NCBI GenBank assembly: GCA_030827315.1
Contig: JAURER010000020.1
Span: forward strand, 1-52,947
Reading direction: 5' to 3'
Origin: Gemmatimonadota bacterium
Lineage (GTDB): Bacteria; Gemmatimonadota; Gemmatimonadetes; Longimicrobiales; Gaopeijiaceae
DNA: 52,947 nucleotides
The notes under the pieces are model-generated. The model was not told the origin of the DNA. It did no database searches and saw only the letters and a program-made list of their open reading frames with translations. Every line of letters starts with the position of its first letter. Within the stretch, counting starts at the first letter, position 1. A program made the position numbers and the translations under genes. Positions 39,126 through 44,852 of this stretch are shown in pieces.

Positions 39126-41228
39126 TCAGAGCGCCCGTCGCGTGACCGCGTGCACGCGTGCCATGAAGCGGGCCGCGTCGATCGACTTCTCCACGTAGTC
39201 GTCGGCCCCGGCCTCCAGGAGCTCCGCCTCCAGGGCATCGCTGCCCGTGGCGGTCCGGATGAGTACCGGAAGTGCCGACGTGTCCACGGATCCCCGAATC
39301 TGATCCAGCACCTCCCGCCCTCCGAGGCCTGGCATGGCGAGGTCGAGGATGATGAGCTTGAAGTCCTGGTCGACCTTGAGCATGTCGAGTGCCTTGTGCC
39401 CGTCCTCCGCCTCCTCGACCTCGAACCCGTCTCGCTCCAGGACAAATCGGATCAGGAGGCGGGCCTCCTCGTCGTCGTCCACAAGGAGAATTCTCGGCGG
39501 CCCGACCGTCACCTCGCCCGTGCTGTCGTCGAGTCCCTGCCCGAGCACCCGCTCGACCTCGGCCAGAGTGGTCCTGGCCTTCCCGACCCACTCGAGCCCC
39601 ACTTCGTGCAGCGTGCGCATGCCACTCTGCTTCGCGACGCGCTCGAGCGTCGCGCGGCCCTTCCTCTGCTCGATCGCCTGCTGGAAGCGCGGTCCCACGA
39701 CGAGCACCTCATTGACCGGCAGGCGGCCCCGGTAGCCCGTGAAGCCGCACTCGTTGCACCCGACGGCCCTCACCACGGGTTCCATCCCGTGCCGCTCGGT
39801 GAGCCGCCGCTCCTCGGGCGTGAGGTGCCCGCGCACGGGCTCCGCGCACGCCGCGCACACCCGGCGCAGCAGCCGCTGCGCGATGGCCCCCCGCATCGTC
39901 TGCGAGATCGTACCGTACTGAAGTCCCATGTCCGCGAGGCGGGCGATCGTGGAGACCGCGTCGTTGGCGTGGACCGTGGTGAGCACCAGGTGACCGGTCA
40001 ACGCAGCCTGCGCTGCGGTGACCGCGGTCTCGTTGTCGCGGATCTCCCCCACGAGGATGATGTCGGGGTCCTGCCGCAGCATCGCCCGCAGCGCGCTGGC
40101 GAAGGTCATGCCCTGCTTGGTCTGGACCTGCGTCTGCGTGACACCGCCCAGTTCGTACTCGATGGGGTCCTCGACGGTCATGATGTTGACCCGTCCGTCC
40201 GCAAGCTCCCGCAGCGCCCCGTAAAGCGTCGTCGTTTTTCCCGAACCGGTCGGCCCTGTCACCACGACAATGCCGTCGCGGTGGGTCAGCAGGTCGCGAA
40301 GGCGGTCGAGCTCGGCCTTCGGGATGTCGAGATCGTCGAGGGAAAGCGAACTGCTCGAGTCGAGAATGCGAATCACGCACTTCTCGGCCCCGCCGGCCGG
40401 AATGGTAGAGACGCGCAGGTCGTAGCCCCGTGCCTTGACCTGAACGCGTGCCTTCCCGTCCTGGGGGCGGAGCCGGTCGGCGATGTCGAGACGTGAGAGC
40501 ACCTTGACCCGAGACACGATGCGGTTGAGCGCCGCCATCGGGAGGTCCATGTGCTTCCGGAGGACCCCGTCGACGCGATACCGTACGGCCCCAAGCCGGC
40601 GCCCCGGCTCGATGTGGATGTCCGACGCACCGACCGTGATGGCGTCACGGACGATGAGGTTGGTGAGCTTCACCACCGGCGTGGCCGAGACGTCGTCCTC
40701 GGAAATGGACTCCGGGCCCATCTCCTCCAAGACCTTGACCGCGTCCTCGCCGATGTCGTCGCCGAGTCCGCCCAGCAGCGTCTCGACGGCGCGCTCGGGT
40801 GAATATCGCCCGTCGAGCGCCTCCTGGATCACGCCCGGGGCGGCCACCTGAAACAGCAGCGCCCGGCCCGCGGTGAAGCCGAGGGCCCGTTCCGCCTCCA
40901 CGTTCGTTGGATCGCACGTCGCCACGATGAAGTACCGGTCGTCCTCGGCCACGGGGTAGACGTGGTGCCTCCGCGCCATCGTCTCGGGAATCACGAGGGC
41001 GGCATTCGGGTCGGCGCGGTGAACGTCCGCCACGTCCAGTCGGAAGTACTCCGCCACCATGCGTGAGAGGGCGTCGTCAGACAGATCGTAGGCGCGCGTG
41101 ACGTCCGTCCAGGCCTCCAAGGCGCTCGCGCCCGCAGGTATCTCCGGGCGCTGACGGTCCGAATGACCCGCGCGTTCGGCGATGCGCACCATCCAGTGCA
41201 CGGCGTGTCCCCGGGCGGCCTCGCTCAT
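39126..41228 (-). CDS. GspE/PilB-type ATPase fused to a C-terminal receiver domain
   Basis: 700 residues. An N-terminal MshEN/T2SSE_N-like domain spans about 40-150. A GspE/PulE/PilB ATPase spans about 180-565, with Walker A GPTGSGKT (325-332), Walker B IILVGEIRD (390-398), the His box TTVHAND (417-423), and the zinc cysteines C458, C461, C491, C494. After a short linker, a response-regulator domain spans 578-700 with the acidic pocket DDD (584-586), phospho-acceptor D629 in ILDLAMPG, T659, and K681. Type II secretion and type IV pilus ATPases normally end after the zinc domain. Its start overlaps the diguanylate cyclase stop by 4 bases. No pilin or secretin genes are nearby. Confidence 0.9.
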   Translation of the reverse strand: MSEAARGHAVHWMVRIAERAGHSDRQRPEIPAGASALEAWTDVTRAYDLSDDALSRMVAEYFRLDVADVHRADPNAALVIPETMARRHHVYPVAEDDRYFIVATCDPTNVEAERALGFTAGRALLFQVAAPGVIQEALDGRYSPERAVETLLGGLGDDIGEDAVKVLEEMGPESISEDDVSATPVVKLTNLIVRDAITVGASDIHIEPGRRLGAVRYRVDGVLRKHMDLPMAALNRIVSRVKVLSRLDIADRLRPQDGKARVQVKARGYDLRVSTIPAGGAEKCVIRILDSSSSLSLDDLDIPKAELDRLRDLLTHRDGIVVVTGPTGSGKTTTLYGALRELADGRVNIMTVEDPIEYELGGVTQTQVQTKQGMTFASALRAMLRQDPDIILVGEIRDNETAVTAAQAALTGHLVLTTVHANDAVSTIARLADMGLQYGTISQTMRGAIAQRLLRRVCAACAEPVRGHLTPEERRLTERHGMEPVVRAVGCNECGFTGYRGRLPVNEVLVVGPRFQQAIEQRKGRATLERVAKQSGMRTLHEVGLEWVGKARTTLAEVERVLGQGLDDSTGEVTVGPPRILLVDDDEEARLLIRFVLERDGFEVEEAEDGHKALDMLKVDQDFKLIILDLAMPGLGGREVLDQIRGSVDTSALPVLIRTATGSDALEAELLEAGADDYVEKSIDAARFMARVHAVTRRAL

Positions 41229-42157
41229 CCTTTCCCCAGCGTGCTCGGTCGCTTGGCGTTCTTCTCGCGGTACATCGCCTCGTCCGCCGCTGCGACCAGA
41301 TCTCTGAGCCGAACCCCCGGATCGTCCTCCAGATGCACCATGCCGATGCTGACGGAGAGCGAATAGGGTTCCGAACGGTTCTGATTGAAGTCGTCGACTC
41401 GCTCCCGCAGACGCGCGACCAGAGTCTCCGATCGCTCATCGGCGGCCTCGAGAGCCAGAACCCCGAACTCGTCTCCGCCCAGGCGGGCGATGATGTCGGA
41501 GCGCCTGAAGGTCGCACGCAGGATATCTGCCACCTTGCGAAGAGCCCGGTCGCCCACGTGGTGCCCCAACGAGTCGTTGATCGTCTTGAGGCGGTCGAGA
41601 TCGAAATACACCATGGTGATCCCGCGCCCCGACCGGCGAGCTAGCTTTAGATGCTGTTCCCCGAGATCCGCGAATCCACGGCGATTGTACAGTCCGGTAA
41701 GGTCGTCGATCAGCGAAAGACTGCGCAGCGCCTCGAAGAGCCGGTGACGCTCGATGGCGTGCCGGACCGAACGCACGATCAGCGACGGTCCCATCTCGCC
41801 CTGCACCAGGTAGTCCTGCGCTCCGGCCTGCACGCTGGAGAACGCCTCCCCCTCGTTCGGCTCGGCGGAGATCACGAGGATGGGGAGGTCGGGGGCGAGC
41901 GCGTACACCCGCTCGAAGGTCACCATTCCCTGGCTGTCCGCGAGGTCGAGGTTGAGGAGGACCGCGTCGAGTCCGCCCCTCGTCAGCCTCGCGAGTGCCT
42001 GGCTGAGCTCGCCCACCCACTCGACCTGCAGGACACCGGCGTGCGATACCGCGAGCCCTGCCTCAACCTTCTCGAGGGCGTACTCGTCCGGGTCGACGAG
42101 CAGGACGTTGATCGGCCGATGCTGCAGAAGAGCGCTCCTTGCAACGGGATCGGGCAC
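41225..42157 (-). CDS. Diguanylate cyclase with degenerate receiver domain
   Basis: 310 residues, REC (about 15-135) then GGDEF (about 145-305). The cyclase half looks active: GGDEF at 227-231, FDLDRLKTINDSLGH as metal and base site, and the inhibitory I-site RRSD at 218-221, exactly five residues before GGDEF. The receiver keeps the acidic pair D22/D24 and S97 but has N69 (VLLNLDLAD) at the phospho-acceptor position and Q119 (DYLVQG) for the invariant Lys. It should therefore not be switched by ordinary phosphorylation. The gene overlaps the ATPase-REC gene, so c-di-GMP made here probably acts on that ATPase. Confidence 0.92.
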   Translation of the reverse strand: MPDPVARSALLQHRPINVLLVDPDEYALEKVEAGLAVSHAGVLQVEWVGELSQALARLTRGGLDAVLLNLDLADSQGMVTFERVYALAPDLPILVISAEPNEGEAFSSVQAGAQDYLVQGEMGPSLIVRSVRHAIERHRLFEALRSLSLIDDLTGLYNRRGFADLGEQHLKLARRSGRGITMVYFDLDRLKTINDSLGHHVGDRALRKVADILRATFRRSDIIARLGGDEFGVLALEAADERSETLVARLRERVDDFNQNRSEPYSLSVSIGMVHLEDDPGVRLRDLVAAADEAMYREKNAKRPSTLGKG

Positions 42158-42770: not shown

Positions 42771-44852
42771 ATGCGCATGGCCCGTTCCCGCCCCGTCTTC
42801 TCCGTCCCCTCCGCGCTTACCCACGCCCTGCCCCTGGCCATGGCGATCGTCCTCGGAGCGGTGCCGCAGCCGGCCGGAGCACAGGCCGCGCCGTGTGCCG
42901 ACGAGGCATACCGGCACTTCGACTTCTGGGAAGGTCGCTGGGTCGTCCGTGCAACAAACGGCATGCTGGCCGGCCACAACACGCTCACGGTGGAGCTGGG
43001 CGAGTGTGTCCTCGCAGAGCACTACGTGACGCCCGCAGGGTTCGAGGGACGCAGCCTCAACGTGTTCGACGCCTCGCGCGGCGTTTGGCACCAGACGTGG
43101 ATGGACAACACCGGGCTGCTGCTCGTGCTGGAGGGCAGCTACGCGAACGGGCGCATGGTCATGCAGGGCGAGACCGTGGGCGCCGACGGCACGGTCACGC
43201 GCAACCGGCTCACCTGGTCACGCCCCTTCGAAAGCACGGACCGCGTGCGTCAGCTCTGGGAGACGTCCACCGACGGCGGCGCCACCTGGAGCACGAGGTT
43301 CGACGGTCTGTACCTCCGGCAGAGCAGTTCGGTGGACTGGGACGTCCTGCTGCGCGGCGGCACGGTGGTCGACGGGAGCGGGCAGCCGGGCTTCTCGGCG
43401 GACGTCGCTATCCGTGGCGACCGCATCGTCAGAGTCTCTCGCGCGCCCCTCGATCCGGCGCGCGCCGCGAGGGTCATCGACGCCGTAGGCAGGGTTGTCG
43501 CCCCCGGCTTCGTGGACATCCACACCCACCTCGACCCCCTCCTGCGCCTTCCCGGTGGGGAAAGCCACGTGCGACAGGGCGTGACGACAGCGCTGGGTGG
43601 TCCGGACGGGGGCTCGCCCTGGCCACTGGCCGAGTACCTGGCCCAGGCCGACTCCGTGGGCGTCGGCCTCAACGTGGGGTACACGGTCGGTCACAACACG
43701 GTGCGCGAGGCCGTCATGGGGCTGGCATCCCGGGTCCCCACGCCGGGCGAACTGGACCAGATGCGGGCCATGATCGCCCGAGGCATGGACGACGGCGCCT
43801 GGGGGATCTCGACCGGCCTGAGGTATCTGCCCGGGGCCTTCTCGGACGTCGACGAGGTCGTGGAGCTGTCGAAGGAGGCGGCCGTCCGAGGCGGCTTCTA
43901 CACGTCGCACCTCCGCGAGGAGGGCCTCGGACTCTTCGAAGGCGTGTCGGAGGCCCTCGAGATCGGTCGGCGGGCGGACATACCCGTGGTGCTGACGCAC
44001 CACAAGGCGGTAGGTGCGCCCATGTGGGGCTCCTCGGCCCGGACGCTCGCCATGGTCGACTCCGCGCGTGTCGCGGGCACGGATGTGATGCTCGACCAGT
44101 ACCCGTATACGGCCAGCTACTCGGGCATCACGATTCTCGTGCCGGCGTGGGCGATGGAAGGCGGCTCGGATGCCCTGCTCGAGCGCATGGACGACCCGGT
44201 CCTCGCCGACAGCGTCCTGTCCGGAATCGAGTACAACATCGTCAACGACCGCGGCGGCAACGACCTTCGCCGGGTGCAGCTGGCCCTCGTCCCGTGGGAC
44301 CGGTCCCTGGAGGGTCTCACGCTCTACGACTGGGCCGTTCGCGACGGTCTGGATCCGACCCCGGCGACGGGGGCGCGCCTGGTCGTCGAAGCGGTCCGGC
44401 GCGGAGGGGCCAGCGGGATCTATCACGCGCTCTCGGAGCAAGACGTCGAGGCGATCATGGCCCACCCTCAAACCATGATCGCCTCCGACGGCCGACTCGT
44501 AGCCCCGGGTGACGGCCACCCCCACCCCCGCTGGTACGGTACCTTCCCGCGCGTCCTGGGTCTCTACGCCCGCGAGCGTGGCGTCCTCGCCCTAGAGCAG
44601 GCGGTACGGAAGATGACCGCGATGCCGGCCGAGCGGATCGGGCTTCGCGAGCGCGGGCAGATCCGCGCCGGCTGGTATGCCGACGTGGTCGTCTTCGACC
44701 CCCTGTCCGTGGCCGACCGTGCGACCTTCGAGGAGCCCCACCAGTACCCGGTCGGGATCGAGTACGTGCTGGTCAACGGGGTCCTCGCGGTAGACGCGGG
44801 GCAGTACCACGACGTGCGATCCGGACGGGTCCTCCGGCGGGGAAGAGACTGA
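42771..44852 (+). CDS. D-aminoacylase-type amidohydrolase with an N-terminal DUF1579-like domain
   Basis: 693 residues. A signal peptide (MAIVLGAVPQPAGA-Q) is followed by a beta-rich region (about 42-185) opening with FDFWEGRWVV, typical of DUF1579-like calycin folds. A complete amidohydrolase begins near 187 with WDVLLRGGTVVDGSG. Metal ligands are visible: FVDIHTHLDP (HxH), SHLREEG, LTHHKAVG, and IASDGRLV. The GGPDGGSPWP segment replaces the Cys-containing GNCG loop of some D-aminoacylases. Likely substrates are N-acyl-D-amino acids in the periplasm. The two domains are usually separate proteins, so this is an unusual fusion. GGAG lies 5 bases before the ATG. Confidence 0.86.
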   Translation: MRMARSRPVFSVPSALTHALPLAMAIVLGAVPQPAGAQAAPCADEAYRHFDFWEGRWVVRATNGMLAGHNTLTVELGECVLAEHYVTPAGFEGRSLNVFDASRGVWHQTWMDNTGLLLVLEGSYANGRMVMQGETVGADGTVTRNRLTWSRPFESTDRVRQLWETSTDGGATWSTRFDGLYLRQSSSVDWDVLLRGGTVVDGSGQPGFSADVAIRGDRIVRVSRAPLDPARAARVIDAVGRVVAPGFVDIHTHLDPLLRLPGGESHVRQGVTTALGGPDGGSPWPLAEYLAQADSVGVGLNVGYTVGHNTVREAVMGLASRVPTPGELDQMRAMIARGMDDGAWGISTGLRYLPGAFSDVDEVVELSKEAAVRGGFYTSHLREEGLGLFEGVSEALEIGRRADIPVVLTHHKAVGAPMWGSSARTLAMVDSARVAGTDVMLDQYPYTASYSGITILVPAWAMEGGSDALLERMDDPVLADSVLSGIEYNIVNDRGGNDLRRVQLALVPWDRSLEGLTLYDWAVRDGLDPTPATGARLVVEAVRRGGASGIYHALSEQDVEAIMAHPQTMIASDGRLVAPGDGHPHPRWYGTFPRVLGLYARERGVLALEQAVRKMTAMPAERIGLRERGQIRAGWYADVVVFDPLSVADRATFEEPHQYPVGIEYVLVNGVLAVDAGQYHDVRSGRVLRRGRD

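Follow-up and report, generated by a model that had tools for sequence, protein, structure and literature searches.

A PilB/GspE-type traffic ATPase fused to a receiver domain and paired with a REC-GGDEF cyclase gene in Gemmatimonadota

The stretch of DNA analyzed here (52,947 nucleotides, hereafter the window) comprises an entire contig of a 3.07-Mb assembly from a Gemmatimonadota bacterium. It encodes a traffic ATPase that continues into a C-terminal receiver (REC) domain, hereafter ATPase-REC, and, directly upstream on the same strand, a putative diguanylate cyclase (Table 1). Pfam searches of ATPase-REC returned MshEN at residues 70–147 (E = 3.5e−14), T2SSE at 181–560 (E = 2.7e−120), and Response_reg at 580–692 (E = 5.2e−25), and the translated ORF has zero internal stops. 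An assembly or frameshift artifact was excluded as the source of the fusion, because the frame is single and full-length orthologs with 61–85% identity occur in independent assemblies. These orthologs, designated class a, are distributed across many genera of the family; the named records among the relatives are Gemmatimonadota, several of them labeled Longimicrobiales.

Table 1. Features of the window and of the related ATPase-REC loci
Feature	Location	Strand	Basis
ATPase-REC fusion gene, 700 aa	39126..41228	-	One open frame, Pfam domains, orthologs
N1 domain, residues 11–145, MshEN/PilB-N1 fold without c-di-GMP motif	40794..41198	-	AF2, VIA-align, motif count
T2SSE traffic ATPase domain, residues 181–560	39549..40688	-	Pfam, catalytic motifs, tetracysteine
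Walker A GPTGSGK, residues 325–331	40236..40256	-	Motif reading
C-terminal receiver domain, residues 578–698 (D584, D585, D629, T659, K681)	39135..39497	-	Pfam, VIA-align, dN/dS
REC-GGDEF diguanylate cyclase gene, 310 aa, upstream partner	41225..42157	-	Pfam, conserved adjacency
GGDEF domain with RxxD I-site	41249..41713	-	Pfam, motif reading
Degenerate cyclase receiver, residues 18–118 (Asp to Asn, Lys to Gln)	41804..42106	-	Sequence reading
4-bp stop/start overlap (ATGA), cyclase/ATPase	41225..41228	-	ORF coordinates
Class b HPt gene	L054:5874-6233	-	
Class b HPt gene	L065:6897-7256	-	
Class b HPt gene	L067:9369-9731	-	
Class b HPt gene	L108:6233-6571	+	
Class b HPt gene	L110:8498-8848	+	
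Class b HPt gene	L104:8862-9203	-	
Class b HPt gene	L103:11431-11799	+	
Class c locus	L061:7598-9685	+	
Class c locus	L062:2447-4558	+	
Class c locus	L064:8258-10360	-	
Class c loci	L070, L072, L073		
Class d loci	L098, L099, L100, L102, L113		

The Walker A motif, the Asp box (VEDP), Walker B, the His box, and the tetracysteine C458/C461/C491/C494 are all intact in ATPase-REC and invariant among its orthologs, which places it in the PilB/GspE-type traffic ATPase superfamily. Its best NCBIfam match was GspE (480.3 bits; equivalog cut-off, 630.25), and the PilB model scored 450.5 bits (cut-off, 675.65). Because both cut-offs were missed and no pilus or type II secretion system (T2SS) operon surrounds the gene, the protein was not classified as PilB or GspE in the strict sense. 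The receiver retains the acidic pair D584/D585, and D629, T659, and K681 are kept in every full-length ortholog read. Its model aligned to RR468 with a VIA-align Z score of 23.2; with these residues and a CheY fold it has the hallmarks of a response regulator and is predicted to be phosphorylated. Ser follows the receiver lysine, a position usually occupied by Pro. The dN/dS ratio was approximately 0.07–0.09 for both the ATPase domain and the receiver in comparisons with two congeners, and the receiver is therefore no decaying appendage. The full-length AlphaFold model had a mean pLDDT of 60 and a poor core, built on a shallow alignment of 12 close sequences, and structure comparisons were limited to the N-domain and REC models.

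In the upstream gene product, Pfam detected GGDEF (E = 8.7e−40) and Response_reg at residues 18–118 (E = 2.9e−11). The GGDEF signature and the RxxD I-site are intact, predicting diguanylate cyclase activity. The receiver of this protein lacks the phospho-acceptor Asp (LLNLDL); near relatives carry Ser at this position, the window protein Asn, and some more distant orthologs retain Asp. The window protein does not fit a PleD-type phospho-activated cyclase. Because the receiver is degenerate in this clade, the cyclase is not simply phospho-activated. The pair is flanked on one side by genes for a porin, secD, secF, tatD, and mutL, and on the other by an amidohydrolase and murB (names assigned by inspection); the order cyclase, ATPase-REC, (porin), secD, secF, tatD, mutL is conserved in most class a loci. 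By inspection, the amidohydrolase (42771–44852, plus strand) appears fused to an N-terminal DUF1579-like, lipocalin-type region. No gene for a histidine kinase, HPt protein, pilin, secretin, or other pilus component adjoins ATPase-REC in the neighborhood of the window. Structured RNAs, riboswitches included, were also considered and dropped, as an Rfam scan of the window returned nothing at the gathering thresholds. An earlier note on this DNA had described the ATPase motifs and zinc cysteines, the complete receiver with D629, T659, and K681, the overlapping GGDEF neighbor with its I-site, and the lack of an adjacent kinase, pilin, or secretin gene. Each of these readings held, on motif reading and ortholog alignment for the ATPase and with the receiver residues at exactly the positions given; the degenerate receiver at the N terminus of the cyclase and the Ser after the receiver lysine of ATPase-REC had been overlooked.

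A phylum-wide search recovered a homolog at E ≤ 1e−110 in 146 of 298 genomes, and nearly all ATPases at the 16 loci read in detail carry a C-terminal REC domain. The fusion is present in close relatives and in more distant paralogs across Gemmatimonadota. We sorted these proteins into four groups, classes a to d. In a phylogenetic tree, class a formed one clade (support 100/100), the branching order of class b was uncertain, and long branches led to class c and to C63, the third ATPase of the genome; a single origin of the fusion is possible on this topology. In class b (about 48–54% identity), an HPt gene often adjoins or overlaps the ATPase gene (seven confirmed with Pfam; Table 1), and hybrid kinases as well as solitary REC proteins are frequently encoded close by. 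By inspection, the class b genes of L063 and L067 lie within flagellar clusters (motAB-, fliW-, flgC-, fliE-, and fliF-like genes). In a class b relative of 899 aa (L066:1139-3838, minus strand), REC is replaced by PAS and a degenerate GGDEF (DSDDF). Class d (43–47% identity) occupies a fixed place beside tig-clpP-clpX, again named by inspection, without pilus genes.

The genome encodes three extension-type GspE/PilB ATPases, one protein of the PilC/GspF type (beside pilB and pilT), and one strong PilM match. We compared the occurrence of class a (at least 55% identity) and PilB orthologs (at least 62%) across 86 genomes of the family: both were found in 28, class a only in 4, PilB only in 18, and neither in 36 (one-sided Fisher test ignoring shared ancestry, P = 7e−7). 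Restricting the test to genomes at least 90% complete gave 5e−6, and counting by genus gave 0.0013. When the C-terminal remnant in G025, which keeps PilB, was scored as lacking class a, the counts became 27, 4, 19, and 36 (P = 1.8e−6, phylogeny ignored); that is, PilB occurs in 27 of 31 genomes with an intact class a gene and in 19 of the 55 without. Within the genus, PilB was found in six of seven genomes with an intact copy and in none of the seven others (one-sided hypergeometric P = 0.0023, shared ancestry ignored). These tests are to be taken as suggestive. In two congeners without PilB or a full PilC, the ATPase-REC gene is a pseudogene: the G013 copy is broken by in-frame stops and by a deletion that brings residue 308 next to residue 629, and the G006 copy has a stop in place of a conserved Trp codon and shows no similarity beyond residue 358. 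The cyclase gene stays open in both. G092 (97% complete) has an intact class a gene without PilB or PilC. A full-length PilB is missing from G015 and G111, and G079 carries only part of one; these three genomes are 75–88% complete. A partial pilus set was seen in G001 and G006, in which PilM is present (E = 1e−58 or better) and neither PilB nor a full PilC was found.

We tentatively propose, at somewhat short of an even chance, that ATPase-REC is an orphan extension motor, gated by phosphorylation, that serves in an accessory or alternative role on the one type IVa pilus machine of the cell, whose canonical PilB, PilT, and PilC are encoded elsewhere. It would be a catalytically competent extension motor of the PilB/GspE superfamily that engages this machine as its platform, with the C-terminal receiver as a phosphorylation switch. 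D629 would receive its phosphoryl group from a histidine kinase or a phosphorelay with genes at another locus, and this would alter hexamer assembly, docking, or ATP turnover. Phosphorelay input is plausible by analogy, because paralogs adjoin HPt and hybrid-kinase genes. The invariant ATPase motifs and the equal selection on receiver and ATPase domain are consistent with a working motor, and the modeled N1 fold appears closest to those of pilus and secretion ATPases. Further support comes from the excess of three extension ATPases over a single PilC/GspF, from the co-occurrence of class a with PilB, and from the decay of the gene in the two congeners lacking PilB and PilC. Several observations run the other way: no pilus, histidine kinase, or HPt gene adjoins the window copy; 19 genomes have PilB without class a, which is thus not needed for a pilus; and G092 and G025 each break the association.

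The main rival to a pilus motor is that ATPase-REC is a signaling protein, its ATPase ring being a scaffold or an ATP-dependent switch with a protein–protein output and an indirect link to the pilus. Class c favors this reading within its own branch and counts against the pilus-motor proposal. In these proteins (37–40% identity), the P-loop GPTGSGK has become GPARSGT and VEDP has become LEGR in five of six copies, and the sixth has decayed further; the Walker A Lys and the Asp box are lost, the N-domain is kept, and the receiver residues are intact. Copies persist in G006 and G013, both without PilB and PilC. Judged by these residues, class c is a pseudo-traffic-ATPase response regulator, and some members of the family clearly do not work as motors. 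The orphan location of the gene in every class and the placement of some class b genes among flagellar genes also agree with a signaling role, and PilB itself is reported to act as a signaling protein in Myxococcus (PMC5544727). For the window protein we nevertheless regard a purely signaling role as rather unlikely, since none of the catalytic residues has been lost in class a, where purifying selection is strong, and since this class tends to occur together with PilB. A broader scenario, possible though doubtful, is that traffic ATPases of Gemmatimonadota became response-regulator outputs with HPt or kinase partners, some serving as phospho-gated accessory pilus motors and one branch surviving as pseudo-ATPases with a live receiver. 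In that scenario, a two-component system would act directly on a pilus-type motor and not via transcription or a separate adaptor.

The c-di-GMP-binding motif of MshE consists of two 24-residue repeats, RLGxx..G..LxxxLxxQ, with a 5-residue linker (PMC5013675). We scored its 14 residues by alignment on the canonical PilB of the genome, accepting Ile or Val for Leu. This PilB has 13 of 14 with the exact 29-residue spacing, and the C63 ATPase has 11. The genome gave six GGDEF matches, of which three were strong, but no PilZ domain was detected, and a PilZ adaptor route was set aside on this ground. The canonical PilB is therefore the strongest candidate receptor for c-di-GMP from the partner cyclase, and more likely than ATPase-REC to be its target. 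Under the pilus-motor proposal, the co-translated REC-GGDEF enzyme would supply c-di-GMP to the MshEN domain of PilB and not to the N-domain of ATPase-REC, so that two distinct signals from one operon would converge on a single pilus machine. The cyclase may also feed a general c-di-GMP pool. Cyclase and ATPase could even be mere operon neighbors, with c-di-GMP tied specifically neither to the ATPase nor to the pilus. This reading would suit the class a genes of G021, G022, and G029, which have no adjacent cyclase, and the survival of the cyclase where the ATPase is a pseudogene. We consider it unlikely, because the cyclase lies directly upstream on the same strand in 23 distinct genomes including that of the window, mostly with the same stop/start overlap (the −4 spacing is available for about 16 of the 23), and because the L066 relative has PAS-GGDEF fused where REC would be.

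The earlier note had gone further and suggested that one protein integrates phosphorylation at its C terminus with c-di-GMP at its own MshEN-type N-domain. The fold it had recognized is there: the AlphaFold model of the N-domain (pLDDT 87.6) has three helices before an alpha/beta part and matched Xanthomonas citri PilB N1 (Z = 13.3), the XpsE N-domain (2d28; 13.0), and MshE (5htl; 12.6), a tie under the rule of the tool itself. The binding residues on which its suggestion depended are not. ATPase-REC has 3 of the 14 motif residues and its orthologs have 2–5; substitutions occur at R and Q in each of the two repeats and at three of four Gly positions, and the helix matching LxxxLxxQ of motif I is absent from the model. 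The MshEN fold is thus present with the known c-di-GMP site gone, and the N-domain is not supported as a sensor. The same fold without c-di-GMP binding is known from X. citri PilB N1 (PMC10333796) and from XpsE, which is altered at several of the same positions (PMC5013675), and a Pfam "MshEN" label is no guarantee of binding. Dual input through one protein is accordingly improbable, even with the fold, a conserved cyclase partner overlapping by 4 bp, and the recovery of imperfect Bdellovibrio motifs by a c-di-GMP screen (PMC5013675). Least probable of all is that ATPase-REC drives a secretion or pilus system distinct from the common one. Its best NCBIfam match, GspE at 480 bits, speaks for this; against it, the score is far under the GspE (630) and PilB (676) cut-offs, the genome has one PilC/GspF protein only, and no secretin, pilin, or platform genes are adjacent in the window or the relatives read.

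Type IV pilus motors are known to be controlled by c-di-GMP binding, by PilZ/FimX adaptors, and by chemotaxis-type pathways; a motor that doubled as the response regulator would link kinase and filament directly. Both halves of ATPase-REC are known, and a 2016 study (PMC5013675) already noted MshEN occurring together with REC. No description of the PilB/GspE-REC fusion family, its HPt partners, or its pseudo-ATPase branch was found in the open-access papers covered, an absence of little weight. The variants across the phylum (HPt partners, PAS-GGDEF, dead ATPase) are natural material for testing the role of the receiver.

Canonical PilB, as in Myxococcus and Geobacter and in this genome (C74:75451-77166; about 40% identity), has N1 and N2/CTD, all motifs, and the tetracysteine in common with ATPase-REC. 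ATPase-REC differs in its C-terminal REC, its lack of the c-di-GMP motif, its location away from pilT and pilC, and its sub-cut-off score. It shares the N-domain fold and ATPase family with the c-di-GMP-binding MshE-type ATPases (PMC5013675), from which it differs by loss of the binding motif and gain of REC. XpsE/GspE resembles it in having the MshEN fold and having lost c-di-GMP binding (PMC5013675), but belongs to a complete T2SS and lacks REC. The MshEN-REC proteins described earlier, such as the response regulator Bd2402, also combine MshEN and a receiver in one protein, with MshEN there being the c-di-GMP sensor (PMC5013675). In the FimX-PilZ-PilB system, a protein with degenerate REC and GGDEF regulates a PilB-type ATPase that does not itself bind c-di-GMP (PMC11656802, PMC8389850). 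FimX, however, is a c-di-GMP receptor with PAS, GGDEF, and EAL domains, whereas the partner cyclase described here has no EAL domain and a GGDEF domain that looks active, in a genome in which no PilZ was found.
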